Assembly: GCA_964036045.1 (NCBI GenBank)
Contig: OZ038389.1
Span: 63,006,359-63,070,358, forward strand
DNA: 64,000 nucleotides
Source of the DNA: Eutreptiella sp. 'Long Island Sound 2002'
Lineage: Eukaryota; Euglenozoa; Euglenophyceae; Eutreptiales; Eutreptiaceae
Direction of reading: 5' to 3'
Part shown: positions 10,642-61,695 of the stretch, in pieces
How positions within the stretch are numbered: the first letter of the stretch is position 1
Layout: every line of letters begins with the position of its first letter
Translations under genes and position numbers: made by a program
The notes under the pieces: model-generated
Database searches by the model: none
Told to the model about the DNA's origin: nothing
What the model saw: the letters and a program-made list of their open reading frames with translations, nothing else

Positions 10642-10643
10642 AT

Positions 10644-10670: not shown

Positions 10671-10689
10671 TTCACACAGTGGTTTTACC

Positions 10690-11899: not shown

Positions 11900-12064
11900 G
11901 AATCCAAACAAGGCGCAGGGGTGTATGTCACCACGCCTAACGAAAAGTTGATGGTGAAGCCGTGCGGTTTCACCAATACAGCCGCCGCCACTGGCACCTA
12001 CAACACCACCGCCGTGAAATATGATCCAAGAGAAATATGTCTCCAGTGTTTTGCAGCAATGAGG
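11900..12064 (+). CDS. Possible extra exon ending at a GTAAG donor
   Basis: An open stretch after a TAA at 11894. It reads as ordinary protein (about 55 residues, containing the short pieces GVYVTTPNEK and CLQCFAAM) and ends exactly at an AG|GTAAGAGGG splice donor near 12064. It does not join in frame to exon 2 of the oxygenase-like gene through any obvious AG acceptor. It could be an alternative exon, part of a second small gene or a decayed exon. No start codon or domain was recognised. Confidence 0.35.
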
Positions 12065-12254
12065 TAAGAGGGTTTTCAAAAACATTCTTTTTAGGGGGTG
12101 TGGCATCTCTTGCAGGGCTGAAAAATAGCGGTTTTCAGGTTGCTACTTAGCAATTTGTTGCTGTACCTCGATAGGGGTTCAACCGTGGGGAAGCCGTAAT
12201 GAAAGTGCGCGGTTGAACTCGGTTGAACCACGGTTTCACTTGGGTAATTCAAGG

Positions 12255-12281
12255 GTACCTGATCCAAATGAGCACGTAGGG
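12255..12281 (-). repeat. Right terminal inverted repeat
   Basis: Perfect 27-bp complement of the left arm at 10644-10670, followed by the AT of the target duplication (12282-12283). LINE ORF4 sequence then resumes at 12284 with a run of six G, as in the empty site. Confidence 0.92.
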
Positions 12282-12283
12282 AT

Positions 12284-17900: not shown

Positions 17901-18225
17901 TGGGTGGTGGTTGTCACGACTTGCATGGGAAGCCCTTGTGGCCCTAGGGTGGGGGGTGTGGCAGAGGCTGTTGTGGGAGAGGTAGGAGATGGTCACGTCC
18001 AGTAAGTCGTTGGCGTGTTGGGTGACCTTTGGTCCGGGGTCCGGGGTTTGGGGTTCGTGTCGGGTGTGCGCGACCGTGAGATTGGTGTCGTCCGCAAAGC
18101 CCACCAGGGGAGAGAGGAGGGGGTAGAGTGCGTAGGCCGGGTAATCCTGCTTGATTGCGAGGGCCAGGAGGCCTGCTCCAGTGCGGACCGTGTATTTGCG
18201 GGTGCGGATGTAGCCGGAGGCAAAG
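14953..18225 (-). pseudogene. Older-copy ORF2, RT second half to C-terminus, broken
   Basis: Contains RT motif C (FADDTN) near 18085, the thumb and linker regions, RNase H (FTDASG, HGELGAMADA, then D and D) at about 16210-15790, and the CPCD...H...C knuckle near 15345. Damage relative to the younger copy: an 81-nt in-frame deletion at about 18168 that removes RT motif B (GVPQGG), a deletion of about 40 nt near 17965, a frameshift near 16405, and a TAG at 15895-15897 where the younger copy has Gln. Conversely, it retains Tyr where the younger copy has TAA at 25991. It is clearly dead. Confidence 0.85.
18215..18225. repeat. Left target-site duplication of the younger LINE
   Basis: CGGAGGCAAAG, matching CGGAGGCGAAG at 36478-36488 with one mismatch. 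The uninterrupted sequence in the younger copy's own RT (near 28070) shows that these are two copies of one site. Confidence 0.82.
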
Positions 18226-18250
18226 GTAGGTATGGTAGGTAGGTGCACCC
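18226..18250 (-). repeat. 3' tail of simple (CCTA)n type
   Basis: On the minus strand the element ends GTGCACCTACCTACCATACCTAC, with no poly(A). The insert ending at 40045 has the equivalent GTGCACCCACCTACCTAC. Short tandem tails rather than poly(A) are known in the I clade and some algal LINEs. Confidence 0.7.
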
Positions 18251-20581
18251 GGTCGTGGAGAGGCGCCCCATGCTTCCCCCTGGCGTCGCCCCCGTGACGA
18301 ACAGGAAGAGGCTCCGCGCGTGAAGAGGGGAGGCGGCTTACATCCCGCTAGACCTGACTGTTGACCCCCAACAAAGCGGCCCCGGGCAACACCGGGAGGG
18401 CTGATCGCCGCCAGCGTGACGTGCTTGTCTTGCCGGGAGGGTGTGCCCCCGTGCTTGCGCACGTCCCCTCCTTTGGGCGGAACCCTAGGGGTTCACCGGA
18501 CTTCCTGGCGTATCCCGTTCCCAAGGCATGCATGCATGTTCTTGGTACTAGGGTTCCGAGGCGTTTGGGTGTCGCACGCTCCGCCTCGAGTCCCGAAGCA
18601 GCGCAGGCCTTAGGATGCAGCCTTACCCCCGGTCCCCAGATCTCGTTTGGCCGGGTCACCTGCATGGCACGGGCTGCCTCAGTGCCCGGGCTGTGGGCAC
18701 TGGGTTTCCTACTGTTGTGCGGCGTTTGTGTTTGGGTCCGGTTTGCGGTTGGGTGTGGGTCTTGTTAACCCCGCCAGTCCTGGCTGGGGTCTTGGGTGGG
18801 TGTGTTTGGGCACGGTTTGAGGTGTTGTCCCTCTAGTGTCGGCTGTTTGTGGTGTTCGTGGTTGGGGTTCCGTTTCGGCCTGCTTATGGGACGTGTGTGG
18901 TTGCGTGGGCGCCCTGCGTGCCCCCCGCCGTTTTCGGTTCTGGCGTGCGGTGTGGGCGTGTGTGCTGGGCCCGGGTCTCGGCTGTGCCCAGCCCTTCTTG
19001 GCTGGGTTGTCGGGGTGTGTTTTTTGCGCTTTTGTTTTTTTTTTTGCTGGGTGTCCCTGTCCCGGGCCTTGTGGTCCCTGTCCCCCCATCCCTCTTCTTT
19101 CGGGCTGGGCTGCTGGCTCTTTTTTTTCTTTTTGGTGTGTGTCTGCTTGTTTCGGTGTCCCTCTTCCCGGTGGGCCGCTGTTCCTGGCTTGGTGTTGCCG
19201 GTTTTGGCTGGGTGGTCCCCCTGTGCCTCTTTGGGGATCCTGTCTTCGGTGCCTTCTGGGGGGGGGTTTGGCCGCCTCTGGTGGTGTTGGCGGGCGGTTT
19301 GGTGGCTGTGGGCTGTTTCCGCGCCGCCCCCCCTCCCCCCTCTGTTTTTTTGTTTTTTCGGGGGGGGGCCTGCCTGTTCCTCCCTCTGCCTTCCCTGGGC
19401 TGGCGCACGCACTGCCCCGCATTCAGTGTTGTCTTCAGGGCTGCTGTAGTCAGTTGCGTTCTGTTTGGCCGTGTTCCGGCCCCATGGGTCGGGTGGGCTA
19501 TGTACACGGTGGGCTCGGCGCCCCTTCTCGCCGGGTTAGGTCCTGGCTCTGCCGGTTGGGCGGCTGCGCCAGGCGGCTGCTTGTGGCTCTGGGTTAGGGG
19601 GCTGGGGTTGTTCGTGTCCTTTCCCCTCTGCGGTGCCGGTTTTAACCTTCTGTGGCCCCGTGTGTGGCCTGCGGTGCTGGTGTGTGGCGTGCTGGTGCGG
19701 CGCCTTCCAGGACGTGCGGTGGCTTGCTTCGGTTAGTCCTTCAGGTTAGGGTCAGTTGTGTCGTGTTGTGCCGCTCTGTGCCGCGTCGCGTCGCGTCGTG
19801 CTGTGGCGTGTTGCACTGTGGCACGCTGTGGTGCGGTGTGCCGTGGTCTCGCGTTGTGCCGCGGTGGGTCAGTGGAGGTCAGCCTGGCCTGTGTTGCGAT
19901 GCGGAGTGCGGGCTGGAGTGTGGCTGGCTGGTGGCTGGGGGGTGCGGTTAGGTGTGGGTGTCTCGCTGGGTCCGTGCTGTGGGGGCTTGGGCGTGCCGCT
20001 CGGGCTGGTGGGTCGGGTAGGTCGACCGCGTGACGGTCCGTGGGGTTGCCCTCCCTGGGGGCCTGTGCCTTGGTCCCATGTCCTCTGGGGGTTTCGGTCC
20101 CTAGTCCTGGTCGCTGTGGCCGTGCCTTCGTCCTCTTCGGGTGCCTGTGAGGTGGCCCTTGTGGCGGCCGGGGTCGTCGCCTGGCGGTGAGGGCGTGGTG
20201 GTGCGCCGTGCGGCGGCGTTTTTTGCGGCTTCCTCTGTGGGTGTGGCCCGTTCTCCCCGTGTAGGTGTGCCCTCCATTCCCCGTGTGGTTTCCGGTGGCT
20301 GGTGGCTGTGCGCTGGTGTGATCCGTACAGCGTCCGATGCTTGCTTTGGTGGTGTGTGTTGGGGGGTGCGCCCCCGGGAGTCGTGCAGCGTTCGGTGGGG
20401 GTGGGGCGGTGCTGGTCCCCCCGTCGTGGTATGCCCTTACTGGGTGTGGGTCGTGGCGTTTGCCGTTGTGCCCTTTTCCTCCGTGCCTTGGTCCCCGCTC
20501 CCGCCCCTTCCTGGTTCTCGGGGGGTTTCCTGCCCCCATGTGGTGTCTCTTCCGGCGTCCTGTCCCTGTGAGTGCCTGCCC
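18251..20581 (-). other. LINE 3' region, no protein recognised
   Basis: GC-rich, strongly A-poor on the + strand, with T runs near 19035 and 19355. The distal 1.2 kb (18226-19405) aligns with 40045-41215, so it is a conserved 3' terminus shared by at least two insertions. Many open frames on both strands are composition artefacts. The part 19405-20581 has no counterpart that I could identify. Confidence 0.65.
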
Positions 20582-22102
20582 TCACTTGGGGCCCCTCCGT
20601 GCCCTCTTGCCTGAGTGCCCCTTCGTGTCCTTTGCCCTTCCCTTGCCCTTGTCCTCCCCCTTCCTGGTGTGGTGGTGGCGGGAGGGGCGGGCCGGGGAGG
20701 GGGCGCCGTCGGCCAAGGCCTGGGGGTGGGTGGCCTGGAGCCACTGGGGGAGGGCTTGGGGGGTGTAGGGGGGGCGGAGGCCCTGAACCGCATCGCGGAG
20801 GAGGGCCTCCCATGCCGCTTGTGGCATGCTGGCCTCCGGGGCGACCTCGTTGGGGTTGGCGGGGGTGCGGGTGCGCACCTCCTCGAAAGTATGCACCATG
20901 TGCACCCCTTCGTGCCTTCCCGCTCCCCCAGCCCACTTCACCCAGCGGCGGAGCTCCTGCAAGGCGGGGGCAGACCACCAGGCGAGGTGGGCGGGGGCCT
21001 GGGGGGGGGAGGGGTCTGTGCCCGGGGTCCTGGAGCGGCCGGGGGAGTACGTGGACCTGCGGTGGTGGCGGGGTTGGCGGTGCCTGGGGGAGCGGGAGCG
21101 GCGGTGGCAGGGGCCTGGGGTGGAGGACGGGCACGGGCGGAGGGGGGGACGGGAGGGGGAGGTGGACATGGGGCGGCGGTGGCGCGCTTGGTGGCGTCCG
21201 GGGGAGCGGGAGTGGTGGTGGCGGGGGCTGGAGGTGGTGGATGGGTATGGGCAGCGGGGGGAACGGGGAGCGCGGCGGGGCCTGTGGGGGGAGGGGGGGG
21301 TGGACGTGGGGCGGCGGTGGCGTGCCTGGCGGCGTCCGGGGGAGCGGGAGCGGTGGTGGCGGCGGCTGGGGTAGGGGGTCTTGTATGGCCGGAGAGGGGA
21401 GGGGGAGGTCGACATGGGGCGGCGGTGGCGCTCGTGGTGGTGCCCGGGGGAGCGGGAGCGGCAGGAGCGGGGTCTCGGGGGGTCGTGGTGGCACCTGGGG
21501 GAGCGGGAGCGGCGCGAGTGGGTGGTTGAGGCGCGGTGGCGTTGTCGGGAGTGTGGGCGCCGTGGGCGAGTGTGCCGTGCGGAGGGGGAGCGGGAGCGCC
21601 GCCGTTTGCGGGACCGGGCCTGATCGCTCGAGTCGGGCCAGTCAGGAGGCGTCGGCGGGTCCTGGGGGGCTTCGCGTGGTGCCGCCTGGTACACGGGGTG
21701 GGGGGGGGGAATCCCCCATCGTCCATGCATCCGCCACGTAGGGGTGTGGTGGCGGCAGCGGCTGGTGGTATGGGTCGAGTGACTGTCCTTGGCGGGGTTG
21801 GGCCCGGGGGGCCCCTTCGGCGTGGACGTGGTGGCCGGGGGGATACGGATACGGTTCCTGGTACGGAGGGAGTGGCTGGTACGGGGGGGCTGGCCCCTGG
21901 CGGTAGGTGGGGTATGCGGGTGGAGCGCTCGGTGGCTGCCATCCCATTCGCTGGTGCTGTTCGTGCACGGGGGGTTATGGCCCGGTGGGGTAGGGCGGTG
22001 GGCAGTGGTAGTGGTGGGGCTGGTGTTGGTAGTGGTGGTGGTGGGGCCGCTGGTGGTGGTGGTGTGGGTAGTGGTGGGGTTGGTGTTGCGGGTATGGCCC
22101 AT
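20582..22102 (-). CDS. ORF5, Arg/Ser-rich protein of the LINE
   Basis: An open frame of 506 codons. The central 250 residues are dominated by RS, SR, RRP and PSP dipeptides (for example RKRRRSRSPS near 21610), resembling SR-type splicing-factor domains. The C-terminal 140 residues have normal composition (near ELRRWVKWAGG at 20950, EEVRTRTP at 20875, then AWEALLRDAV) and end Lys/Arg-rich. The same protein is recognisable in the older copy, so it belongs to the element. Its first 128 nt overlap ORF4. The natural start is uncertain because a stop and G-run indels lie near 21640-21975. An RS domain suggests a nuclear RNA-binding accessory role, which is inference only. Confidence 0.55.
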   Translation of the reverse strand: MGHTRNTNPTTTHTTTTSGPTTTTTNTSPTTTTAHRPTPPGHNPPCTNSTSEWDGSHRALHPHTPPTARGQPPRTSHSLRTRNRIRIPPATTSTPKGPPGPNPAKDSHSTHTTSRCRHHTPTWRMHGRWGIPPPHPVYQAAPREAPQDPPTPPDWPDSSDQARSRKRRRSRSPSARHTRPRRPHSRQRHRASTTHSRRSRSPRCHHDPPRPRSCRSRSPGHHHERHRRPMSTSPSPLRPYKTPYPSRRHHRSRSPGRRQARHRRPTSTPPSPHRPRRAPRSPRCPYPSTTSSPRHHHSRSPGRHQARHRRPMSTSPSRPPLRPCPSSTPGPCHRRSRSPRHRQPRHHRRSTYSPGRSRTPGTDPSPPQAPAHLAWWSAPALQELRRWVKWAGGAGRHEGVHMVHTFEEVRTRTPANPNEVAPEASMPQAAWEALLRDAVQGLRPPYTPQALPQWLQATHPQALADGAPSPARPSRHHHTRKGEDKGKGRAKDTKGHSGKRARRGPK

Positions 22103-23540
22103 GGACCCCTTGTGGGTTTTCCGGTCCCCTTTGTGGGGGTGGGGGGTTGGGCATCGTGGGCAGTCCCTGGGGCGGCACTATGTGGTGGGCAGGGGGGGCG
22201 GGTTGGGGGCCGGGCTTGACGGTGACGGTGGTCGAGGGGTCCCACGTCCCTGGGTTGGTTTGGCCGGCGGTGGTGGTGGTTTGCGGGGGTTGGATGACGG
22301 GGCGCTTGGTGACGGGGATGCGGACCAGGGCTTGGACGGGCTCGTGTTGGGTGGCCGCCTCTGCGGTGGTGGTGGGTGCCGGTTGGAGGGGGGCGTGGGT
22401 TGTGGTGGGTGGGGGGTCCTGGCTTGGGTGAGGGTCCGGGTGGGGCTGGTGTCGGTTAGGCTTGTCTCGTTGCGTTTGTGGTGTTGTGTGTGCTCGCGTG
22501 GGCGCCAACTTGGGTTTGGGGTCGGGTTTGGGGTTGGGGTCCGGTTCCAGGTTGAGGAGGACCTCTGTCCGGAGGTGTGAGGGCGCCGATGTCGGGTCGG
22601 GGGTCTTTCCGGTGTGTTGCCGGGGTGCCCGAGTCGCCTGTGTGGGGGTCGGGGGGTCGGTGCGTGCGGCCGCGGCTTTGGCTTTTGCCCTGGCCTGGAG
22701 GATGAGGGCGGCGGGGAGGGGGGGGTCGGAAGATGAGGTGGAGGAGGTGGACGAGGCTGAGGATGAGGAGGAGGTGGTGGACGCGGGTTGGGCTGTGATG
22801 TGCGCGGGCTTGCGGGCTGCGGCTTCTGCTGCGGCCACGGCGGGGAGGATGGAGAACATGTCCTCGGGCTGTAGGTTGGGGGCGGGCGGCTGGGGGGGCC
22901 CGGTCGTGACCTGGCGGCCCGGCGGGCCGATCTGGTCGGCAGCGGCGGGGGAGGGAGGCGCGGGGCTGTGGCCTTCTCCTTCTGGGCTTGGCTGGGCCCG
23001 GGTCCTGCAATGTGCGAGGTTGTGTGGGTTGGCGTCCGGGAACAGTTCGCGTGGGCTGCATTCAGGGGCCGGGGGGGGTGGGCCTGGGTCTTCTGGGGTG
23101 TGTGCGGGGGGCGTGGGCGGGCCTCTGGGCGGGGTGGGCGTGCCGCGGGGCGCGGGGCTCCTCTTGGCGGGTGTGTGTGGGTTGTCGAGTGTGGGGGGTG
23201 GTGAGGGGTGTCCGGCGGGTGGGTGTGTGGCGGGCGTGTGCTGATGTTCAGGCGGCTGGGGGAGGCCCGTGTCGCGGGGCCCGGGGGTGCGCGCGATGGT
23301 GGGTGTGTGTGGGTCTCCGGGTGAGCAGCGAGAGGGGAGGGGCATGGGCGGGGATTGTGTGGTGGGGTGTGTTGTGTCAGTTGATGTGTCCGCTCGCCGC
23401 GGCGTGCTTGCGTGGCCAGTTGTAGGCCGGGCGGTTTGGAGGAGAAGCTTGCCGTCTTCTGCTGCCGCGGCAAGGATTTCGCAAACGAGCTTGCGTATCT
23501 GGTGGACCTCTTGGTCAGTGGTGGGAAGGGGGTATGCTAG
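21975..23540 (-). CDS. ORF4, Pro/His/Thr-rich protein of the LINE
   Basis: The frame is open from the region just after the ORF3 stop (23548) down to TAA at 21975. No ATG lies near the beginning; the first in-frame ATG is at 23343-23345. The N-terminus is helical and charged (DQEVHQIRKL and AAAAEDGKLLLQ at about 23510-23450). A long Pro-rich section follows, then a second helical patch (QPEDMFSILPAVAAAEAAA near 22840), an Ala/Lys patch, and a His/Pro/Gln-rich C-terminus. No catalytic motif is visible. In-frame reading continues after the TAA into another Tyr/Pro/Gln-rich stretch to 21642, so ORF4 may once have been longer. It could be a nucleocapsid-like or scaffolding protein, which is not demonstrated. 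Confidence 0.5.
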   Translation of the reverse strand, partial: LAYPLPTTDQEVHQIRKLVCEILAAAAEDGKLLLQTARPTTGHASTPRRADTSTDTTHPTTQSPPMPLPSRCSPGDPHTPTIARTPGPRDTGLPQPPEHQHTPATHPPAGHPSPPPTLDNPHTPAKRSPAPRGTPTPPRGPPTPPAHTPEDPGPPPPAPECSPRELFPDANPHNLAHCRTRAQPSPEGEGHSPAPPSPAAADQIGPPGRQVTTGPPQPPAPNLQPEDMFSILPAVAAAEAAARKPAHITAQPASTTSSSSSASSTSSTSSSDPPLPAALILQARAKAKAAAARTDPPTPTQATRAPRQHTGKTPDPTSAPSHLRTEVLLNLEPDPNPKPDPKPKLAPTRAHTTPQTQRDKPNRHQPHPDPHPSQDPPPTTTHAPLQPAPTTTAEAATQHEPVQALVRIPVTKRPVIQPPQTTTTAGQTNPGTWDPSTTVTVKPGPQPAPPAHHIVPPQGLPTMPNPPPPQRGPENPQGVHGPYPQHQPHHYPHHHHQRPHHHHYQHQPHHYHCPPPYPTGP

Positions 23541-23547
23541 CTTTGAG

Positions 23548-24707
23548 CTAAGACCCGCGCGGCTGAGGACCCTGTGGATGGCGTGGTACCCGCAGGTGAG
23601 GGATTGCTGCGGTCTGGGGGGGGGGGTTTGGTCGTGTGTCCGGGCCCGCCTTGACTTGTCTGTGGGCGGTGGGGATGGCCCAAACCCAGGGCACGGTCCC
23701 CGTGGGTGGCCAGCGGCGCTGGATCCAGTGAGTCAGGCAGAGCAAGGCCTATCCCAGGTGGTAGCCCGCCTTCTCTGAGGTGATTTGGGCCAGGCCACGG
23801 GCTGGGGGCTTGTCCCCTGGCTGGAGGACGCCCTTGAGGACCCTGTGCTGGGTGGTGGGGTCCCCTACTGCCCCTGGTGGGGCAGTCCCTGGGGCGAACA
23901 TGGTGTCTGTTCCTTTGATGAGCAATTGCGGGCCGGGGGACGTAGCCGTAGCGGCTATCACGTAGTAATGCCCGCGCTCGAGGACTGTAACCCAGACGTC
24001 TGGCGGGGGTTGGTCACTGTCTGTAGGTGGGGGGGGGGGGGGTTGTCGTCTGGGGTGCGGAGGCCGGCGGCGCAGAGGGCGGTGTCGCGGGTTCGTGCGG
24101 TGGCCTGTTCCCACTGCTCCGGGCGGTTTGGGTCCGCTGGGTGGTCCGTCTCCGCTGGCGCCCGTCGTAGGCGTACGGTCTCTTGACGCGTGACGTTGAT
24201 GCCGGTGTCGTGCGTCAGGGCCTGGCCCCACTCGATGGGGGGGATCCAGACGTGCTGGCCCTGGGTGTGTTTGCGGGCTCGCCAGAGTACGAGGTCCACA
24301 ATGGCCTCGTGGAGGCCGCTGCTTGGGGTGGTCAGGTCCCGGAGGGCTTTGACGGTGAGCTTGGTCCAGTCGTCTTGTAGGCGGTACCAGCCCAGGGGGG
24401 TGGTAGGGGCCCTGTCTTGGAGGGTTGCTCGGAGGAGGTCGGGGTTGCGAATGGTGGCCGGTGTGAGGGGGGGGTGCCCCGGGTCTGGGGGGGTTGGGCT
24501 GGATGGGCTGCCGGGGTCTTGCGCGTCTATGTCGACGTATGGTTGGCCCTGGTTGGGCTCGGCCGGGTTGGGCGTTGCCGGGTGGCTTCTTGGGTCAGAG
24601 ATGCGCCTCAGGGCGCTGTGGTGGTGTCTTGGAGGCCTGCAGATAGAGATGGGGGGCGCGTGCGGGGCGGGGAGTGGGTTAGTGGACGTCTGGGTCATGC
24701 ACGGCAT
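23548..24707 (-). pseudogene. ORF3, overlaps the end of ORF2 by 29 nt
   Basis: ATG at 24705-24707 lies inside the last ten codons of ORF2 (stop at 24679). The first 249 codons read to 23958 and include a helical, charged section (IVDLVLWRARKHTQGQHVW near 24290). The conserved second half (VLERGHYYVIAA near 23965 and LCLTHWIQRRWPP near 23735) is in another frame after a G run at about 24030, plus a stop at 23749, ending at 23548. Both halves match the older copy, and the start overlap is identical there. No known domain was recognised. The overlap suggests translation by re-initiation or frameshifting from ORF2. Confidence 0.6.
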
Positions 24708-27700
24708 GGTAATGGATGAGACGCTGCATGTGTTCCCTGGCGGTGGGGTCGGTGAGTTGCTCCGCGTGTGTTAACAGGAGGTGTTTGCGGTGTACCATTT
24801 GGGCCGCTGCTCTGCGGACTGCCTCTAGCCGGAGGTGTGCTGCTGCCTCCATGGGGCTTTCTGTGTGTTTCGTGAGGTGTCGGTGTAGGGCCTGTGTCAC
24901 CGCCCCTCTCATGGTGGCTTCGTTGACCAGGGGATCTCGGAAGAGGTGTTCGGTGGCCTGGTCTGCGTGGCTGTGGGTTGGCCATCCTTCGTGTTGTCGT
25001 AGGGTTTCCGCCGGGGACCAGCCCACTAGTGTGTCCCTGCCTGTATGCAGGGGGCATTTCTTGAAGTGTTCCCAGTCCTCCGGGCTGGTGTGGTCGCACG
25101 GGCAACGGGTGTGTTCTTCAGGGACGTGGATGTGTTTGCGGGCGAGCCATCTGGCGACCCTGGTGAAGAATGGTAGTTGCTCCCTGAGGAGCTGGATGCG
25201 TCGTTTTTGGAGGTGGGCTGGGACGTTTGCTGTATGCAGCGCTGAGTGGTAGAGGGGGATTTGCAGTCTGTCCTGGAGCTCCTGGATGTGCGCCCGGCTT
25301 TCTGCGTCGCCGAGCACTCGGGCGAGATGTTGCATGGGGTTGGGGTAGTGGTATGCTCTGTCGTTGGAGGAATAGGGGGGCGTCCTCTGGTACCCAGTCT
25401 GGGGTCTGATGGGGCTCGGTTACGGGGGGTATGTGTTGGAGCTGTGTGTGGTTGCGGCTGAGGTCAGGGATCTGGAGGGCTGGTAGGTGCGTTGTGCGCT
25501 GGTGTACTGCCTGGTTGTCGACCTTACCATTTCCGTATTGGTGTCTGTGGGACTCTTGTTTCACGATGTGGAGTTGGACGTAGGGGGGAAGGCTGCGAAG
25601 GGCTTTCCAGAGCAGCAGTGCCTGGGTGCCGAGGCTCGTTGCGGTGGCTTTGTGAAGTGGTTGCCTTGCTATGCGGAGGAGCAGGTGTGTGGCGACAGTG
25701 GCGTCTCCCATGAACCAGACCCGGACGATGTGCGGGGAGTGGGCGGGTAGGTGGGCCGCGATCTCGGTGATGGCGTCGGCCATGGCCCCTAGCTCCCCGT
25801 CGGAGGAGGCCCCATAGGTGGTGTGGCCCGTGTGGTGGTCCATGTGGTAGTGTCCCCCGGTGTGGGTTAGCTGCAGGGTGGCCCCCCCGGTGATGGGTGT
25901 GAGGGCGGATTCGCCTGAGGCGTCGGTGAAGAAGAGCCGGTCCGCCGGTGATGGTTGTGGGAGGCGGCATGGGTTCATGGGCAGGTAGGCTTATATGGCG
26001 AGGCCTGTGGTGAGGTGGGCCACTGGGGTTGTGGGCTGCAGGATGGGGGTGGCGTACACCCCTTTTCCTTTGGAGATGATGTGTTTCGTTTGGGGGGACA
26101 TGGCTATGAGTCCCTGTTCCGGCTGTCCTTGTGTGAGGTAGGAGTAGATGTAGTGGAGGATGTAGGCTGTGTCTGGGTTTAGGTCGTGGCATGTGAGGGT
26201 TTGTGTTCGGTGCTGCGGTGTGTGGCAGGAGTGGTGGAGCGGATAGTAGGGGTGCTTGTGCTTGCCCGTTCTGCCTGGTTCGTACATGCTGTAACGGATG
26301 GCGACCCCTGCCGGGTCGGGGCGGGGCCATGTGGGTGTAGTGGTGAAGAGCCATTTGGGCGCGTGGTCGGGGTTCCATGCTATCGTGGGGTTAGTGTCGG
26401 TGCGGTGGAACCATGGGGCTACCCATGCGTAGGCCTGTCTTTGTAGGTGGGTTGTGGGCCGGGTGTGGTGGCGTGCTATGAGGTGTAGTACCGGCCATGG
26501 TGTGGTTGGTGCCTCGGGGTCACAGGCCCAACATGTGCGTGACATGCTCTGGGAGTCATGGGGGACCCGTGGTAGGTCCTGGGTGGTCATGTGGTGTTTC
26601 GGTATGCGCCATGTTGCCCCGTGGTTGATGACGGTGGTCTGCGTGGGTTTGGCTTCATTTGGGGCCAGTAGTAGGGTTAGTGGTGGCACTGGGCCCGTCA
26701 CCGGAGGGACGGGTTCGTGTTTCAAGCCGGTGGGTGCGTAGGGCGGTGTCGCTGGGATGGGTCGGGGGTGTTGCTTTGTGAATTCTTGGTAGGCTGTGTG
26801 CATGTCTTTGCTTCCCGGCAGAGTGTGTCCCGCTGCTCGTGCCGTCTGCGTGAGGTACTGGTGGAAGAGGCGGTATTGAGGCCATTCGGGAAGCTGTAGG
26901 AAGGGGGTTTGGTGTGCCCTGCTTTGGTGCAGGACCCGCATTTGGGGGAGGGTGGCGTATACTACGGTGATGGAGGCCCCGACAAGGTCTATGGTGCGGA
27001 TGGTGCACTTGGGGTGATGGTGGAGGTCCCCGCAGAGGACCGCTAGAGGCCCTTCCTGTGGGCATGTGTGGTTGGTGACTATGGCGTGGTGTGGGGATGG
27101 GAGGAGAAGCTGCAGGTGGTTCCACAGGCGCGTGTTCATGTTGGTGGGCATGCCCGTCTGGTGGAATACCCAGCGCGGACATGTGTTGCGGGCCCGTTGT
27201 GCGGCTTGGAGGCGGATTGCGGTGACCTCGCGGACCTCCAGTGAGTGGTTGTGGGTCATGCGGTGAAGGAGGAGGGCGGTGTGTCTGGTGTAGGCCGCTT
27301 TCACCTCGTTCCCTATGGCGTCCCCATAGTGGGGCCATGCCGCTCGGATGGCGCGGGTGGGTATGGAGGTGGGCCAGCCCCCGTGTGCTGCCCATGCCTT
27401 GGTCACGGCGCGTGTGGCCGGTTGGAGGGCGGTGGTGGGGTGTGTCAGGTGGAGTGCTTGGAAGCCTATGGAGGCGTTCAAGACCCCGGTGAGGTAGTAC
27501 GCCAGGCTCTGGTGGGACAGGGAGAGGGCCTTGGTGGTCGGGGACGCATATCTGGGGAGATGGGGGAGGTGTGATTGCAACTTGGGGGGGAGGGTGGCGT
27601 CCTCAGGGTTGGCGGCCTGCATTACCCCCAGGTGGGTGGTGGTTGTCACGACTTGCATGGGAAGCCCTTGTGGCCCTAGGGTGGGGGGTGTCGCAGACCC

Positions 27701-30028
27701 CTTGATCATGGCCACTGATTTTGTGGGGTGGACGATGAGGTTGCTGTGGGAGAGGTAGGAGATGGTCACGTCCAGTAAGTCATTGGCCTGTTTGGTGACA
27801 GTTGGCCCGGGGTCCGGGGCATGGGGTTCGTGTCGGGTGTGCGCGACCGTGAGGTTGGTGTCGTCCGCAAAGCCCACCAGGGGGGAGAGGAGGGGGTAGG
27901 GTGCGTAGGCCGGGTAATCCTGCTCGATTGCGAGGGCCAGGGGGAGCGTCACTAGAAGGTACAGGAAGGGGCCCTCTGCTCCCCCTTGGGGGACCCCGCT
28001 GCCTGGCTCCAGGAAGGGGGTGGGGCCTGCTCCAGTGCGGACCGTGTATTTGCGGGTGCGGATGTAGCCGGAGGCGAGGTTGTAGAAAGGGAGGCCTAGG
28101 CGTTTCCACACCGCTTCTAGAAGGAGCCAGGGGGTGTTCGGGAAGGCACCTTTGACGTCGAGGGAGGCAATGATGACGTCCACCGGGTCCATGTCTGCGA
28201 TGGTGTCCTGGAGGAAGATGGCCTCGTGTGGGGACCGGCCTGGGATGGCCCCCCAGAGGCTTGCTGGTATGTGGGGGTCCAGGTGGGGGCGGATGCGGCG
28301 TAGGAGGATGGTCCAGACAATTTTGACCTCCGTGACCGCACAGACTATGGGGCGCCAGTTGTCCGGGTTTGCCCAGTCCCCTTTTTTGTAGAGGGGGCGG
28401 ACAACGTTTGCCCAGTCTGGTGGCAGGGGGGTCTGCCCCGTGACGATGTCCCAGAGGCGGTGGACGAGGATGTGGAGGAGGTGGGCGGGGAGGTGGTAGT
28501 ACGCCTTCGCAGGGAGGCCGTCGTATTCTGGGATTTTGTGTTGCCAGAGACTCTGGATGGCCTTCCGGACTTCGTGGATGGTGAGGGGGCGTTTTTCCAG
28601 TTGCCTCCTCTGGGCGTGGTTGAAGACCTGAGGGAGGCGGTCGTTTTTGGCCCGGGTGTCTGGGTCCAGTGTGTCTTGGATGGGGGTGTGTTGCCAGAGG
28701 AAGCTGTCTTGGGTGGCTTGGAGCACTGTGGCTGGGTCGTTGGTGAGGGAGCCGTCTTCTTGCCTGACCCTGGTGATGGTGCGGTGGCCGGTGTCGGTCA
28801 TGGCGTCGTTGAGGTGGCGGATGGCCTTGTAGGGGAGTTCATGTTGCGCATACCGTTCGTGTTCCTGGGCGATGCGCTGTTGCCTGTGGATGTGCCACCG
28901 CTGCAGGTCTGCCCTGATGTGGGCTATCTGTATCCTGCAGTGGTGTATCTGGCGGCGGGTTTGGGGGATGTCGGTGTGGAGGAGGGTCGCCAGTTGTTGC
29001 TTTGCATGCCAGAGGTCATGGAGCATGTCCCCTAGGGCCGTGGGTGGTTGGTCGTCGTCTGTGTGGGGGTGTTGCTGGAAGCCGCAGGCGACGGCGGCCG
29101 TGCGCATGGCCGTGAGTAGGTCGGTGGGGTCTGGTTGGATGCGCCGGGCGCGGTCTATGGCCCTGTGATATTGGGACCAGGCATGCTTGTCATGCAGTGG
29201 GGGCATCTTCAGGAGGGGTGGTAGGCCTTGGTCCGCATCCTCATGGGGGCTGGGGGGAAGGTTGGGGATGGTGAGGCGGATGTGCAGGGGGCTATGGCCT
29301 GTGGGTCCCAGCGGGAGGGGTCCATATCGGGCCTCTGCCCGGATGATGGTGGTGGGGTCGCCATAGCATACGTCGATGCGGGATCAGGCGGCATCTGTTT
29401 GGTGGGGGAAGTGGGATGGTTGGCCTTCGAGGTTGGCCGTCAGGTCCACGAGCCCCAGCATTTCGATGGTGTCGCGGACTGCTTGGTCCTGGGGTGTGGC
29501 CTGTCCCCCTCGGTCCGCCGGGGTGGGGGCGGCGTTCATGTCGCCGATGATGACTGTGGGGGCGAGCATGGCCATCTGGCGGTATGCCTCGGCCAGAGCT
29601 TGGAGGAAGGGTTCCATGGCCTCGCCGAAGGGGACGTGGGTGTTGATGACGTTGAGTTGCCATCTGTCCCCGACGACCTCATAGACACCTAGCCTCCCTG
29701 GAACGCTGAGGTGGTGGACGAGGTGGACGTGGATGCCGGTTTGGGCGTATAGGGGGGTGCCCTTGTGCCAGTAGCATTTGTACGCTTTCTGGTCCGGGGT
29801 ATATATGGGGGTGGTTTCTGGGGGGTCGTCGCGTTGTAGGCCTTGTTCCTGGAAGGTGAGGAGGTGGGGAACCCACCCCGGCCCCTGTACCATCAGGAGC
29901 TCCTGGAGGGCGGTTGTGGCGTCCTTGGAGTATGTGACGGCCGGGTGGTTGAGGTCGAGGAGGTTGACGGTGGCCTCGGTGGGGGCGGGCCGGGGTCGTG
30001 GAGGCTTGTGCCCTCGGCCCTTGCCCCG
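24679..30028 (-). pseudogene. ORF2: endonuclease-RT-RNase H polyprotein, three lesions
   Basis: One continuous frame from a TGA at 30029 to 25994, interrupted once, then further domains. The AP-type endonuclease has TFQEQG near 29855, IIGDMN near 29550, SRIDV near 29375 and GHSPLH near 29300. RT: motif A LDVKGAFPN at 28142-28165, motif B GVPQGG near 28000, motif C FADDTN near 27870, and HLGV after it. RNase H: FTDASG near 25925, DGELGAMADA near 25795, GDAT near 25705 and KVDNQ near 25520. The C-terminal knuckle CPCD-x8-H-x3-C is at 25053-25106. Lesions: TGA at 29384-29386 within the endonuclease, TAA at 25991-25993 before RNase H (Tyr in the older copy), and a 1-nt insertion near 25375. The first ATG is at 29891, but endonuclease homology begins earlier. 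It would copy element RNA at a nicked target. Confidence 0.88.
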
Positions 30029-30224
30029 TCAGGGAGGGGGACTGCCCTAGTGACCCCTTTTGCACACCTTTGAGCGTAGCGGTTGAACAGCGGTTGAACC
30101 CAGTTGAACAGCATGTTGCTGTTCAACCCCCCAGTTGAACTCGGTTGAACGCGGTTGAACAGTTCAACTGGCCTATCGCGCCAATCGGTGGCGCGTGCTC
30201 GCGCGATCACGCGTTCAACAGTGG
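30029..30224 (-). promoter_or_regulatory. ORF1-ORF2 spacer with GTTGAAC hairpins
   Basis: About 200 nt packed with GGTTGAAC/GTTCAACC copies. Two arrangements are perfect hairpins: 30103-30127, an 11-bp stem GTTGAACAGCA with a 3-nt loop, and a 7-bp GTTGAAC stem with a 1-nt loop near 30154-30168. The same heptamer fills the subterminal regions of the inverted-repeat element at 10644-12281. It could be structured RNA used to start ORF2 translation, or a small mobile fragment inserted between the ORFs. Function is unproven. Confidence 0.55.
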
Positions 30225-33200
30225 TTAATTGGTAACTGTAGCCTCTCCCACAATTTTGGGGCTCGGGGACTTTTTGCCGGTTGGTGGGCGCTTGGGTAGG
30301 CGCGGCGGGGGGAGGCCTTGGCTCCACTCCGGGGGGAGCTCTCCAGTGTATTTGGTGCCTCTGTGGGCCTTGTTCTCTTCGGTGCGGAGTCGGATGGGGT
30401 GGGCGCTGGTGAGCTCCAGGGTGTAGCCTTCTGGTTTCTCCGGGGCACTGCTGCCTTGGTCTAGCTCCTTTTGGCGGTGCCAGATCACCCGGATCTGTGG
30501 CCCCCCGTTGTCCCCCGGTTCCTTGAGGCGGTACTGGATTGTGCCTTCACACCAGATCCAGTCGCCTGTGTGGTCGTTGCGGAAGGGCTGCTGGACCTTC
30601 GCGCCCTTTTTGAATCCTGGGTACGCCTTGGGCGGGGGCGGTGCTGGTGGCGGGAGGGAGGATGATGAGGATGCCTGGTCTGGGTGGGGCGGTGGTAGTG
30701 ATGGGAGGGAGGATGACGAGGATGCTTGGTCCGGGTGGGGCGGTGGTAGTGGTGGGAGGGAGGATGACGAGGATGCTTGGTCTGGGTTCGCCGGGTGGGT
30801 CGGGTGGGATGCGGGGGGTCGGGAGGTCGCTACTTTCCCGGCTTGGTTGGGGGCGGGTGTGCCCCTTTGTCGTCTCGCTCGCTTGGGCGGGACTGGAGGT
30901 AGCGGGGCTGGGGGGGCGTGGGGTTTGAAGAAGGGGTGTGTTGCTTGCTGGCCTGGATCCGTCAGTGGGGGTTCCGCCGGTGTTTGCATTTTCGCTTTCG
31001 CGTGGCTGCGCATGATGTCGGCGAGCTTGCGCACGGTCTCCGGGGGATCTGATGGCCATGGCAGTGCGGCCGGGCTGTCGTCGAAGGGGTGGTGAAGGTG
31101 GTAGTTCCTCATGGCCTTGGCCTGCATGACCCAGGCCTCTGTGGGTTCCGGTGTGTCTGGGCCGTCGGGGGAGCCTTGAGCCCAGTAGAGTGCTGTGTGG
31201 GGGGCTTCCCGGGGGGCGCCTTCGCGGCCTGTGAGGGTGGTGGCCTGGAGGAGTCGCTGCCGGCCCCGTGGGGGGTCTTCCAGGCCTATTTCCGGGGTAT
31301 AGGCCTGGGCCGCCATGAGGACTCCGTGTGCCCAGTGGGGGACCCACCATTGGGCGTCCGCTTTGAGGATGTGGATGGCAGGTTGTTGGGGGGGTGTGTC
31401 CAGGGTGTCCCACGATGCGATGGCTAGTTCTATCCTGGGAGGGTGGAGGTGTGGGGTGACCCTGCGGCTTAGGAGTTGATCGATGTGGAAGGGGGTGACG
31501 GGATCTTTGGGGCCCTGCGGTGGTGGGGGCATCGCTGGGATGGTTGTGGGGTCCCAGTGGCGTTCGTGGGCGGCGCTGATGATGTGGTGGGCTTGCCCGT
31601 CCAGGACAATGTGGCGCTCCGTGCCGAAGTCCTTTGGCAGGTGGGCTGCGGGGTGGACGGTGATGTGGGCTAGAACGCGTTGGTGAGCCTTTTTTCCGCC
31701 GTCTGGCGCCTGTGTCCGTTTGTCCCCCGGGATGTGCTGGTGTTGGTGTTTTGGTGGGGGCGGTCCCAGGGCGAGGGATTCTACACCGTGGAGGGGGATG
31801 GCGTGTTCCCTGGACCTGTTGGGCAGGATGTATATGCCCGGGTCTCCCGGTACGGTGCCCAGGTACATGTTGCCCGTGATGGTGGAGGCCGGCAGCGGTT
31901 GGCGCAGGGGCGAGGTGCATGGGGTGGAGCAGGGCGGGTCATGGTGCTCACACCGGGGGTGGTCGATGCCGTACCGGGTGACGTGTACGGTGAAGGGTCC
32001 AACGGCGCGCTGGAGTTTGTGGGGTTGGATGTTGTGGAGGCGGGCCACCGCCCGTGTGTGGGAGCGCCCTTCGCTGATCCACACGGCGTCTGCCCGCGAC
32101 GCCGCTGGGTTCAGGCAGTCCGTGGTGATGCCTGTGATCGTGCGGTTGTGGGTGGTATCTGACACTCTGGGGGGGGGGGCGCTGATGCGGGGGATGGTGT
32201 GGTTGTCGTGGAGGGTGCGGGCCTTGCGCCTCGCATCGTGTCGGTGCTGGGCCTCCTGGGCGGGGGTGTGCATACCTGTGTGTTTGGGCTTCTTGTTGGG
32301 GCGGTCTGCTGTGTGGAAGGGGGTGGGCCAGGAGGGGGCGTGGTGGAGGGTGGGGTGTGGGAGGTCCCCCCGTGTTGCCCATGTGTACAGGGTGGTCGCG
32401 GCGGCCCCTTCCGCCTGTATGGTGTATCGCTCGTCGTGTCGGCAACGGGTGACGAGGACGTTGGGGGCCGTCAGCTCATACACCTGTGTGGTGTGGGGGA
32501 GGTGGCGGGTGACGGTGATCCTGGCGGCGTCGTTCTTGCCGGTGGTGGTGTGGGGGATGATGTAGTGGGTCGCCCATTCGTCCTGGGGGGTGTGTTCCGT
32601 CGGGTCTAGCTTGAGGGGGGGGTGGAGCGGCTTCGGTGTTGGGGGCTTGTCTTGGGCCTTCGCGTGGGGCGCCACTTTGGTTTCGACCAGGTATTGTGTG
32701 CCCCAGGTTTTCGGGGCCCCTACCTGTGTGGCTGCCGCTCCTGCGGCTTGGAGGAGGGCGGTTGTGTTGGTGTCTAGAGGGCAGGCCCCCGGTTGGGGGG
32801 TGAGGGTGTCGTGGTCTTGGTATGCCCACCAAATGGTGTAGCCTCGTTGGGTGTTGCAGTGCGGGGTTTGGGTCTGGGCTTGCTGGATGAATAAGGCGGT
32901 CTTGATGTCCTCCGCTGCTTGTGGGTTTATGGGTGTGGCGTACGCCCATACTCCCTGGGTGTGTATGCCGTGTGGTGCTTGGCCTACTCCTCGTATCGGT
33001 TGTAGGGTGTGGTGGGTGCGCGTGAGCCCTAGGTGTTCTTGGAGGAGGTCCCCCCGGATGTCCTCCCGGCGTTGCTGCCAGGTGTGTTCGTGGTCGTTTG
33101 GGGCGGGGTAGGTGATGACGATGGCTTGCAATGGGGTGGGGCCTGGATGTACCGTCATAGGTGCCGACGATGCTTGCGGGGGTATGTGGACGGCGTGGGC

Positions 33201-34163
33201 GGGGGCTGCTGTTACGGGGTCTCCCTCCGTGGGTGTGATCGTGGCATCGCCTTGGACGGTGAGGAGGAGGTGGTGGCGGCCCGTCGGTAGTGTCCAGGTG
33301 GTGGTGGGCTCGGTGATCGAGTGGAGGCGGATGGCCTGGAGCCCCGGTGTGATTTCGTCCCATCGGAGTGTGCCGTTGTGGACCGCCCATTTCCGTGGCC
33401 GGTCTCGAAACCCGTTTCGGTCCGGGGTGGTGCGGTGTTGTGGGGGGAGCTCCATTGTGGTGATGGGGTGGGTGAGGGGCTCTGTGCGGGGTTTGTCTTG
33501 TGTGGTTGGTGGTGATGGTGCCTGGGGCATATCTTTCTCCAGTTGTTGTGGGGCTTTCGCCTCCTGGAGTTCTGCGCTGATGGTGGCGAAGACATCTGGG
33601 AGGGTGGGGGAGGCGGGGGCGTGGGGTGCTGGATCGTTCCAGGTGATGTGGTATTCTTCAGGGTTCTCGGGGCTTTGCTGTACGGTGATGGCGGCGGTGG
33701 CGTCGTCTTCAGGTGTCCATCGGTGTGGATTGTGGTCGAGGGGGTGGAGGGTGATGGTGTGGCGGTGTTTACAGCTGTGGAACGCTAGGAGGGCGTGGAG
33801 GCCGTGTCTGGTGTCCCCGGGCGGGCGGGGGTAGGTTTCGGCTGCTGCTTCCAGGAAGGCGTCCGTGGTGCCTTTCCAGGCGTCTTCCCAGAGAAGGTCT
33901 TCCTCTGTGCCCCACTCGTTGTCGTTCCTTTTCTCCTGCTTCCACCCCTGGAGGGTCGCGTGGTCCTCAGGGAGGGCTCGTTGGATGGACTGGTAGTACT
34001 GCTCGGCGTCCATGGGGGCTAGGGTGCTGACCAGTGTGGCGTAGATGTACTTGGGGGGGGGGGGCGGTGGGGGCGTGGCGGCGCGGTCGGGGTCGGGCTC
34101 CTCTCGCTGGTGTTCCGCATTCTGGTCTGCGGTGGACGCGGGGGATATGGAGCGTGGTGGCAT
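30225..34163 (-). CDS. ORF1, 1,312-codon protein of the LINE, intact
   Basis: The only undamaged long ORF of the element. ATG is at 34161-34163, and the same frame stays open upstream (DDDYDVLPAIRH lies 5' of the ATG), so translation may begin earlier. Residues 40-180 are charged and globular-looking. Residues 280-360 (TGRHHLLLTVQGDATIT then HAVHIPPQA) resemble a cupin-like barrel. Residues about 1140-1190 contain three in-frame 17-residue repeats (HPDQASSSSSLP, 51 bp each). The last 120 residues (KKGAKVQQPF, WIWCEGTIQY, IRVIWHRQ) look like a Tudor/SH3-type barrel. No RRM or CCHC typical of LINE ORF1 was seen. It presumably binds element RNA or chromatin. Both domain suggestions are inference. 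Confidence 0.7.
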   Translation of the reverse strand: MPPRSISPASTADQNAEHQREEPDPDRAATPPPPPPPKYIYATLVSTLAPMDAEQYYQSIQRALPEDHATLQGWKQEKRNDNEWGTEEDLLWEDAWKGTTDAFLEAAAETYPRPPGDTRHGLHALLAFHSCKHRHTITLHPLDHNPHRWTPEDDATAAITVQQSPENPEEYHITWNDPAPHAPASPTLPDVFATISAELQEAKAPQQLEKDMPQAPSPPTTQDKPRTEPLTHPITTMELPPQHRTTPDRNGFRDRPRKWAVHNGTLRWDEITPGLQAIRLHSITEPTTTWTLPTGRHHLLLTVQGDATITPTEGDPVTAAPAHAVHIPPQASSAPMTVHPGPTPLQAIVITYPAPNDHEHTWQQRREDIRGDLLQEHLGLTRTHHTLQPIRGVGQAPHGIHTQGVWAYATPINPQAAEDIKTALFIQQAQTQTPHCNTQRGYTIWWAYQDHDTLTPQPGACPLDTNTTALLQAAGAAATQVGAPKTWGTQYLVETKVAPHAKAQDKPPTPKPLHPPLKLDPTEHTPQDEWATHYIIPHTTTGKNDAARITVTRHLPHTTQVYELTAPNVLVTRCRHDERYTIQAEGAAATTLYTWATRGDLPHPTLHHAPSWPTPFHTADRPNKKPKHTGMHTPAQEAQHRHDARRKARTLHDNHTIPRISAPPPRVSDTTHNRTITGITTDCLNPAASRADAVWISEGRSHTRAVARLHNIQPHKLQRAVGPFTVHVTRYGIDHPRCEHHDPPCSTPCTSPLRQPLPASTITGNMYLGTVPGDPGIYILPNRSREHAIPLHGVESLALGPPPPKHQHQHIPGDKRTQAPDGGKKAHQRVLAHITVHPAAHLPKDFGTERHIVLDGQAHHIISAAHERHWDPTTIPAMPPPPQGPKDPVTPFHIDQLLSRRVTPHLHPPRIELAIASWDTLDTPPQQPAIHILKADAQWWVPHWAHGVLMAAQAYTPEIGLEDPPRGRQRLLQATTLTGREGAPREAPHTALYWAQGSPDGPDTPEPTEAWVMQAKAMRNYHLHHPFDDSPAALPWPSDPPETVRKLADIMRSHAKAKMQTPAEPPLTDPGQQATHPFFKPHAPPAPLPPVPPKRARRQRGTPAPNQAGKVATSRPPASHPTHPANPDQASSSSSLPPLPPPHPDQASSSSSLPSLPPPHPDQASSSSSLPPPAPPPPKAYPGFKKGAKVQQPFRNDHTGDWIWCEGTIQYRLKEPGDNGGPQIRVIWHRQKELDQGSSAPEKPEGYTLELTSAHPIRLRTEENKAHRGTKYTGELPPEWSQGLPPPRLPKRPPTGKKSPSPKIVGEATVTN

Positions 34164-36477
34164 GGGGTGGTCGGGCTCCTGCGGTTCCGTGGGTTGCTGG
34201 TGGGCTTGTGGGCGCGGGGCGGTGGCTGCCAGTAGGTGTCGGATGGCCGGGAGGACGTCGTAGTCGTCGTCCCAGCAGTGGGCTGCAGCGCACGTCCTGT
34301 CGGGGGAAGCGGGGGGGCGTGTTGTGGAGCGGTGTACGATAGGGTGGGCGACGCGTGCGGGTGGTGGTGTGCTCGCTCTGCCGTTCCGTTCCCCGCGAGC
34401 CCTGACCCTTTGGGGGTGGTGGTGATGTTGGTGGTGAGGGTGGTGTGGGTGCCAGAGTGAATGTTTGTGCCGCTGGCGGTGTTGGTGGCGAGGGTGGTAT
34501 GGGCGTTAGCGTAGATGAGGTTGGTGCTGGGCTATGGTTGATGGTGAAAGTTGGTGGGTCAGCTGTTGTCGCTGTCGTCGTCGCCGGTGGTGTTGGTGCC
34601 TCTGATGTCGTGGACACTGATGGCGAGGGGGATGGTTGGTGAGCATCGCGAGGGTGACGTATGGGCGTATGTGGTGTTGCCCGTGTTGTCGATGGTGAGG
34701 GTGTTGTTTCTGGTCGTTGGGGCGTAACGTTTGTGGGCCGGACGTGGCGGTAGTGGCGAGCGTGCTGTAGATGACGGGTGATGTGGCCCACGTCGCCTCC
34801 GGTGGTGGAGGGGTGATAGGTGCCGTGGTGGCGTTTGCGACGATGGGGTGCCGCGGGTGGTGTATTGGTTGTTGGTGGTGGAGCTGTTCTTGGTTTGTGG
34901 GTAGTTCCCGTCCGGCGGTGGTGGTGTTGGAGGTGTTGGTGTTCGCTGAGGCCGTTGGCAACGCCAGGGGTTCCTGGCCTTGCGCGGGGTGGTGGTGGCG
35001 CTGGTGAGTGTAGGCGGTGCCATGGGCGGCGGTGCCATTGACGGCCCGGCCGGGTGTGCTGGCAGTGATGCTGACGGTGTGGGTGCGGTGGCGGCAGTGT
35101 TGTGGTCGTTAGTTCATCGAGGTTTGTGTCTTTCCGGGTGTCGGCGACACTGATGATGGGTCGGCGCAGGCGCTACTGGTGGGTGTGGGTCCGGTTGTGG
35201 GAGGTTTTCCGGTTGTTTTGGGCACTATGGGCTGGCTTGACTGCTGGTGTTGATCATCGTCCTCTGGCGAAGGGTGGTGTCGCTGGTGGGGTGTCTGCTG
35301 GTGCTGCTGCAGGTTTTGGGTGTAGGTGTGGTTTAGGGTGCGGCGTTGGTGGGTGGTGACGACGGTGGGTGGCCTGACTGGTGGGTGGCAGCGGTAGTGG
35401 GGGTGTCGGTTGTTGGTGAGGTTGCCGTCGTCGGTGTTTCGGTTGGTGCTGGTGATGGTGTCGCTGGTTGTGCAGATGGTGGGAGGTGGGAAGGGGACCC
35501 GTACCCTGGTGGTTTGTGAGGGTGTCGTGGCTTTCGGTCGACGGTGCCGCTTTCGGTGGTGTTCTTGAGAGTTGGCCAGGAGTGTTGTCGGCGTTGCTCT
35601 GGTTTATAGTGCCTGCGTTTCGTGGTCGTAGGTGGTTCACCGGGCTTTGTCGCTGGTGAGGGTGGTGCAAGTGGTGTCGGTGACTGTTCGGCTGGTGTCG
35701 TTTGTGCGGGCTGTGTGGTTGTTGCGTCAGGGGTCGTTGGCGTTGGTGACGGTCGTGTGTTCGGGGTTGGTGCCGGTGGTGGCAGTCCGATGGTGAGGGT
35801 GCCGGGGACGCTGGGTGGCTCCGCGTTGTTGGGTTTTCTCCTCGCCCTACCTGGCGGAGGGTGCTGCTGGTGTCGCTGGTGGTGAGGATGGTGGATGTGG
35901 TGGTGTTGCTGTGGTGTTTTGTGCTGCTCCGGTGGTGGGGACCCCTGGTTGATGTTGACGATGCTCCGGGTGATGTTGATGCGGTGGGTGTGATGGTGTG
36001 TGGTGTTGCTGTTTCTACCCTTGGCTGGGGGCCTGGTGGGTGGCGCTGGTGGCGTTTGTTCGCCAGCCGTGCTGGCGTCCTTGGTGTTGCCGTCGGTTGG
36101 GGCGCCCTAGGTGTTACTCTGTGCCGGGGTCGTGGTGGTGGTGGTAGGGGTGTTGTAGGTGAGGGTACCTCGGCTCGTCGTTGGTGGGGTTGGCGGTGGT
36201 GTGGATATTGCCGTGGGTGTTGGTGTTGGTGTTGCCGACGGTGAGGGTGTCACGGTGGTGGTTGGCGTGTCTCGTGGTGGTCTGATGGCGTGGATGTTGT
36301 TGGTGTTGGTGCTGGGTGCCGCCTACGTTTGGGTGGTCGGCGGTTCTGGGCGTGCCACTGGTGGCTGGTGTTTGGCTGGCTTGTGGTCCTGGTGGAGCCG
36401 GTTGTCTCTGGTGTTGGGATATTCCCTTCGGCTGTCCTTGGGTCTGTAATGGCAGGTGTTGCTTCGGTTGCGGAAGG
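34164..36477 (-). other. LINE 5' region, GT-rich leader
   Basis: The + strand consists largely of GTTGGTG/GGTGGTG variations (minus CACCAAC). It appears to be low-complexity leader or untranslated sequence. Open minus frames (33967-34791, 34506-34961, 35254-35670) are His/Thr/Pro-rich without conserved motifs. It ends abruptly at the target duplication at 36478. No other copy is present to confirm the 5' end. Confidence 0.6.
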
Positions 36478-36488
36478 CGGAGGCGAAG
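36478..36488. repeat. Right target-site duplication of the younger LINE
   Basis: CGGAGGCGAAG, partner of 18215-18225. Older-copy RT sequence resumes directly after it. Confidence 0.82.
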
Positions 36489-61692: not shown

Positions 61693-61695
61693 CAC

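Follow-up and report, generated by a model that had tools for sequence, protein, structure and literature searches.

The window analyzed here, a 64,000-nucleotide stretch of contig OZ038389.1 from the euglenophyte Eutreptiella sp. 'Long Island Sound 2002' (assembly GCA_964036045.1), contains a nested retrotransposon copy (the inner copy) which, judged by comparison with its relatives elsewhere in the genome, is in all likelihood a 5'-truncated, 18.25-kb member of a giant family of endonuclease-type long interspersed nuclear elements (LINEs), whose full unit would span about 25 kb. The inner copy is a single insertion. The family has one 3' terminus and 5' ends that vary; its long copies, of more than 20 kb, are co-linear, and target-site duplications flank some copies. 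The coordinates of all features are collected in Table 1.

Self-comparison of the window reveals that the reverse transcriptase (RT) gene of an older relative is interrupted by the 18,252-bp inner copy, the sense strand of which is the minus strand. The two halves of the older copy match the RT region of the inner copy itself: positions 12284-18171 match 21969-27944 at 90.4%, and positions 36465-37301 match 28053-28892 at 91.1%. When the flanks are joined at 18225 and 36489, they align without a gap to the inner copy's RT region (28024-28151), and the empty-site score peaks at offset 0 (216, versus 214 one base off; 25 offsets tried). The 11-bp sites on the two sides (CGGAGGCAAAG and CGGAGGCGAAG) match at 10 of 11 bases; the gap-free rejoining, the best offset and this match therefore identify the 11-bp site as a target duplication. 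Comparison of the inner copy with itself detected no repeat of at least 100 bp common to both ends, that is, no long terminal repeats (LTRs). These results support the view that the inner copy is a non-LTR retrotransposon that inserted as one unit into a member of its own family, with a short target duplication on its flanks. An initial reading of the letters of the window (the sequence-only reading) had proposed just such a nested single insertion with an 11-bp duplicated site, and both the self-comparison and the empty-site test bear it out.

A first look through the 2.28-Gb assembly found 1914 candidate matches to the RT stretch; the tail had 860, and 40 candidates were scored in each case. 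The expected 3' region was fetched for eight other copies, and in six of them (on contigs C14, C13, C2, C4, C18 and C16) homology ends at 18224-18228, with differing flanks. Two more tails, one at window position 40045 and one in the stretch L025, stop at the same 3' point, and the length of the (CCTA)n tract varies among the nine aligned termini. On the strength of these alignments, position 18226 is the shared 3' terminus of the family. The distance from the RT to this end, 8,775 bp in the window copy, differs by -19, -123 and +10 bp in the C14, C4 and C18 copies, and is longer by 0.7, 1.6 and 3.8 kb in C2, C13 and C16. A strong stem is predicted at the 3' terminus; its structure is unproven because only 1 of 60 pairs has changed on both sides. 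L025 (C1:79912560-79920560) holds a rearranged copy; about 250 bp past the point where its matches to leader-type repeats cease, a second copy with the same orientation has its 3' end.

The 5' ends behave differently from one copy to another. Outside the window, the 20 copies with the highest RT match scores formed our 5' sample, each inspected at its expected 5' end. Five of these copies (L014, L017, L018, L019 and L023) match the window copy through 36473, where its BLAST homology to these longer copies ends, and then run on, mutually aligned for 2.3-4.1 kb; they lie on five contigs (C27, C16, C14, C13 and C2) and are about 88-96% alike beyond 36473, with some indels. Two copies end inside the leader, L016 (C18) at 34728 and L022 (C4) at 35415. 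The match of L013 (C1) breaks at 34811 with leader-type repeats reappearing further on, L025 is rearranged, and L012 offers just a detached fragment there. The match ends thus range from 34728 (C18) and 35415 (C4) through 36473 (window) to differing points beyond in C27, C13, C16 and C14. Since other copies continue past 36473, the window copy is 5'-truncated. By these alignments the element does not begin at position 36477, where the sequence-only reading had placed the leader and the 5' end; its other copies extend up to 7.15 kb further. That reading had asked whether full-length relatives end near 18226 and start near 36477; the first holds in six of eight copies, and the second fails for the five of 20 that continue. 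It had also counted copies ending right after ORF2 or starting inside ORF1 as evidence against a single unit. Two sampled copies, on C18 and C4, start inside the leader, but they are 5' truncations with an unchanged 3' end.

It could be argued that 18.25 kb is the full-length element after all, with its true 5' end at 36477 and unrelated DNA upstream in the longer copies, as the window copy does stop at 36477 with a target duplication. We consider this highly improbable, since five copies on five contigs have 2.3-4.1 kb in common beyond 36473, the duplication of the C14 copy lies outside the extra upstream sequence, and the C1 and C2 copies have a common terminus 7 kb further on. Nor does one duplicated locus appear to lie behind all five longer copies, as the flanks differ among the four whose 3' flank was recovered.

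The full length of the family is best seen in the C2 copy, which was read without a break in five stretches (L033, L040, L039, L023 and L038). This copy is 25,504 bp long; it is co-linear with window positions 18228-36473, apart from small indels and about 0.2 kb missing near 30.1 kb, and then continues for 7,153 bp more. The C1 copy (L013, followed into L041) ends within about 12 bases of the C2 copy's 5' terminus; because these independent copies stop at the same point, the two would define the 5' end of the family. A further long copy, on C14, measures 21,662 bp and is truncated within the tandem repeats of the leader. Thus, the sequence-only reading was right to call an 18-kb unit exceptional in size, and it understated the case because the window copy is 5'-truncated. 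In the C2 copy, an insert of about 0.68 kb (in L040, near the equivalent of window positions 24216-24254) lies inside ORF3 (open reading frame 3; see below), with a 39-bp duplication on both sides.

Target duplications are clear in the window copy (11 bp, 10/11) and in the C14 copy, where a 29-bp duplication matching at 28 of 29 bases scores 27, versus at most 10 in 200 controls, and sits outside the extra sequence beyond 36473. The best candidate at C18 (9/10) is not above controls.

Several points weigh against a giant, single-unit family. The full length of about 25 kb rests on two copies, and the interior of the full-length unit was read in the C2 copy only, the length of which counts in the 0.68-kb insert near 24.2 kb. 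The C1 copy, which has the common 5' terminus, is internally rearranged (its match breaks at 34811), and its terminal 1.6 kb is just 75.6-79.8% like that of C2. Of the 20 copies in the 5' sample, 10 do not match the element where the 5' end is expected; of the eight examined for a tail, two (C27 and C1) lack a 3' terminus within the 3 kb retrieved for that region. The duplication at C2 is suggestive only, matching at 14 of 15 bases with a score of 13, where the highest of 200 controls reached 12. Both ends are available for six outside copies, and in three of these (C4, C18 and C16) no duplication was found; the C13 copy is embedded in (TA)n and so is uninformative on this point.

Some of these points could also be taken to mean that the window copy is a composite, in which an ordinary ORF1-ORF2 LINE lies next to a separate element or host DNA downstream and the two move together rarely or by chance. 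The missing tails of C27 and C1 would fit this, as would the lack of a known domain in ORF3, the frames past ORF3, which are not clearly longer than chance, and two database proteins (P0145 and P0148) that pair an ORF3-like piece with other sequence. However, the tail stands at the window's distance from the RT, or at that distance with added bases, in six of eight outside copies on six contigs; reading of the C2 copy showed the sequence from RT to tail to be co-linear; and ORF3 relatives recur as open frames, in clusters of 48 and 37. No independently mobile block of ORFs 3 to 5 was seen among the copies examined, in a survey that included no search aimed at one. A composite is therefore unlikely in our estimation, although a little less so than the 18.25-kb full-length element considered above. 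An assembly or scaffolding artefact would be conceivable in a repeat-rich genome known here from assembled sequence alone. Set against this are the copies on different contigs with different flanks, the different target duplication of C14 and the exact rejoining of the empty site, and we give an artefact very little credence. A 5'-truncated copy of a giant LINE remains our preferred reading of the inner copy.

The coding content of the element appears to amount to about three ORFs, not the five (ORF1 to ORF5, with three extra ORFs after ORF2) that the sequence-only reading had listed. ORF1 is 1248-1302 residues long in its fullest relatives (13 relatives, all from one source), and its structure model is unusable, with a mean predicted local distance difference test score (pLDDT) of 27.0. 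ORF2 is, in relatives, a single frame of 1737 residues (P0003, in a cluster of 758 member sequences), which covers positions 29893-24682 of the window copy (29893-25337 at 92.7%, plus 25428-24682). In the window copy this frame is broken by stops at 29384-29386 and 25991-25993 and by a frameshift near 25.4 kb. As the relatives' ORF2 reaches to 24682, part of the supposed extra ORFs is therefore the broken carboxy terminus of ORF2 itself.

The five PDB sequence matches of the ORF2 RT are four LINE-1 ORF2p entries and one labelled RNA-directed DNA polymerase. The endonuclease-like part lies amino-terminal to the RT in the same frame; its match is under the Pfam cut-off in the window copy (Table 1), and P0003 has no match among those listed, whereas a 48%-identical relative, P0023, exceeds the PF03372 cut-off (E = 1.2e-6). 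P0023 (469 members) represents a second family, and the one NCBIfam match, a weak one to group II RTs, is also to P0023. Acidic residues after the RT align in what we take to be an RNase H-like arrangement, yet searches of Pfam and PDB returned no hit to RNase H. Neither this motif nor the Cys/His carboxy terminus has profile support.

Downstream of ORF2 there is likely one further gene, ORF3, to judge from its relatives. It starts at about 24707, overlapping the end of ORF2, and is matched by P0142 and P0139, the homology of P0139 reaching 22161. The relatives P0149, P0150 and P0142 (557-776 residues) fall into clusters of 48, 37 and 1 members; in P0145 and P0148, mentioned above, the ORF3-like piece adjoins the other sequence. 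A GHYY...GTD...QxSLTCGY pattern (His/Asp/Gln/Cys-Gly) is retained in four ORF3 relatives that are 74-87% identical to the first. This pattern presumably resembles that of Ulp1-type peptidases, a likeness that no search supports: as a Ulp1/C48-like peptidase, ORF3 has no Pfam match, and sequence and profile searches of PDB returned nothing relevant. Its structure model is likewise unusable (mean pLDDT 31.2).

To assess the frames on length, open frames in eight segments were compared with 200 shuffles of the same dinucleotide composition. Only ORF1 and the endonuclease-RT frame of ORF2 (two of the eight segments) outdo all 200. ORF4 and ORF5 were considered as genes and rejected, their frame lengths being reached by 6 of 200 shuffles (19736-21978, a borderline case), 27 of 200 (21978-23500) and 33 of 200 (18226-19736). 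The frames left over beyond ORF3 do not clearly exceed the lengths that a sense strand of 7-10% T would yield. The first part of ORF3 and the broken carboxy terminus of ORF2 are reached by 16 and 17 of 200 shuffles, respectively, and both rest on relatives instead. Codon periodicity of substitutions between copies was seen in two bins only; these lie in the ORF2 region, and bins further downstream had none, by a weak test in which ORF1 was negative too. The longest frame in the 4.84-kb element described below and that in the distal leader of C2 each beat all 100 shuffles, while T content shifts along both stretches; these frames count against an all-chance view, yet we do not read them as genes. 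The sense strand of the window copy contains just 7-13% T per segment, and frames are open in all phases because it is so T-poor. As a practical warning, in such a strand the length of a frame by itself says little about whether it is a gene. The minus strand is very T-poor over long stretches of both 18226-36477 and 40045-44883, and the plus strand has an AT skew of -1.0 at 43001-44000.

Table 1. Features of the window, with strand and the evidence or remarks for each
Feature	Position	Strand	Evidence and remarks
Inner element copy	18226..36477	-	18,252 bp, single insertion; self-comparison, empty-site test, copies elsewhere
Conserved 3' terminus with (CCTA)n tail	18226..18446	-	Alignment of nine termini, mean column identity 94%
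Target-site duplication, element 3' side	18215..18225	.	CGGAGGCAAAG
Target-site duplication, element 5' side	36478..36488	.	CGGAGGCGAAG
Filler, about 7 bases	36471..36477	.	Between end of identity to longer copies and duplicated site; read by eye against five longer copies
ORF1	30270..34013	-	1312-residue frame from 34163 in window copy; without known domain
ORF2	24682..30028	-	Endonuclease-like amino terminus, RT, RNase H-like motif, Cys/His carboxy terminus (last two by eye)
APE-like (Exo/endo/phosphatase) endonuclease part of ORF2	29387..30028	-	PF03372, E = 0.0052, under cut-off
RT domain of ORF2	27704..28384	-	PF00078, E = 9.3e-16
ORF3 region (likely)	22161..24707	-	Broken in window copy; relatives carry one frame of 557-776 residues
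Older copy, 5' part	36478..37301	-	Itself 5'-truncated inside ORF2 at about 37301
Older copy, 3' part	9604..18225	-	10643-12283 unmatched; self-comparison
4.84-kb related element	40045..44883	-	3' tail of the giant element and tandem-repeat type of its 5' leader

The window contains two other relatives of the inner copy. The older copy that received it lacks about 80 bp of RT, and a stretch of 1641 bases within it (10643-12283) is unmatched. Its match goes no further than the equivalent of position 20897, and the 3'-most 2.67 kb of the family, including the tail, is not seen there. None of the six query proteins, among them the RT, matches the 4.84-kb element, which we read as a probable non-autonomous relative using the same machinery. 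A direct repeat of 1276 bp with 13 mismatches flanks this element (38769-40044 and 44884-46159); it ends exactly at the element's 3' terminus and resembles a target duplication, one far exceeding the 11-29 bp seen elsewhere. Tandem repeats of about 181-208 bp at 41221-42471, with the near-palindrome CTCGCCACTCCTGGCGGAG, recur in the leaders of L013, L018, L023 and L038, and in L025. Other features of the window include satellite arrays at 1-2095, 2829-3013, 3657-3990 and 7331-9059, with units of about 187 bp, 22 bp (near-palindromic, TGCGTGCAGCGTGCAC) and 190 bp; a 536-bp direct repeat (91%) at 37789-38324 and 61960-62495; and a region of 70-74% GC and opposite strand bias (59001-62000), possibly another element in the other orientation.

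A mechanism that would account for the family begins with a long RNA made from the 5' leader of about 9-10 kb, the tandem-repeat region that may serve as promoter. The endonuclease of ORF2 would nick the DNA, and the RT would start its copy from the conserved (CCTA)n terminus on the 3' side, as in target-primed reverse transcription; the endonuclease, RNase H and ORF3 activities are all putative. Frequent early stops in copying would leave 5'-truncated copies with short target duplications. For the window copy, copying would have left out the 5'-most 7.15 kb or so, with insertion into the RT gene of an older copy.

Most of the features tested suggest that the element behaves like a LINE of the apurinic/apyrimidinic endonuclease (APE) type: it has a LINE-type RT, an APE-like endonuclease before the RT, a fixed 3' end with a simple-repeat tail, and variable 5' truncation. 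In common with APE-type LINEs such as L1, its RT is closest to LINE-1 ORF2p among solved structures and is preceded by the endonuclease-like domain; ORF1 is followed by ORF2; and a common 3' end is combined with variable 5' truncation and, in the two clear cases, target duplications of 11 and 29 bp. LINEs such as L1 are usually a few kilobases long and have poly(A) tails. The unit described here differs from them in its size of about 25 kb, in an ORF1 of about 1260 residues without known domain, in a likely third ORF after ORF2, in a leader of about 9-10 kb with tandem repeats, and in a (CCTA)n tail instead of poly(A).

LINEs are generally regarded as compact, and the reach of the RT is assumed to set a limit to target-primed reverse transcription. 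A 21.7-kb single insertion with a 29-bp duplication, together with a co-linear copy of 25.5 kb, would raise this bound several-fold, and the element would show that a LINE is able to accommodate additional coding sequence as well as a leader of great length. The chances seem evenly balanced that no LINE family above 20 kb was known before this one, and that it has a single RNA unit of about 25 kb, with a tandem-repeat leader of 9-10 kb, a large ORF1 whose fold is not recognized and a third ORF bearing a peptidase-like pattern, more than 20 kb of which can be copied in a single event of target-primed reverse transcription. No giant LINE was found among the top matches of literature searches aimed at long or giant LINEs, the coverage of which is short on subscription journals, and priority is unproven.

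Giant size itself has precedents in other classes of elements. In its available text, a review of eukaryotic transposable elements larger than 20 kb covers LTR, Penelope-like and DNA elements, and brings in non-LTR elements (L1) only for small transductions (PMC6431247). The giant LTR retrotransposons described there, Ogre (25 kb) and Burro (more than 30 kb, with tandem repeats), are alike in size range (PMC6431247); they differ in having LTRs, whereas the inner copy has no repeat of at least 100 bp between its ends. Terminons, the giant Penelope-like elements of bdelloid rotifers, are, in the same available text, endonuclease-deficient and telomere-attached and carry hammerhead ribozymes (PMC6431247). 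In the present family, by contrast, the RT is LINE-like, the copies examined lie inside contigs, and an Rfam search of the window, L031, L038, L023 and L042 returned nothing at the gathering threshold, hammerhead ribozymes included. The likeness to Terminons, which reach up to 40 kb, lies in their being giant retroelements with accessory frames, most copies of which are 5'-truncated (PMC6431247).

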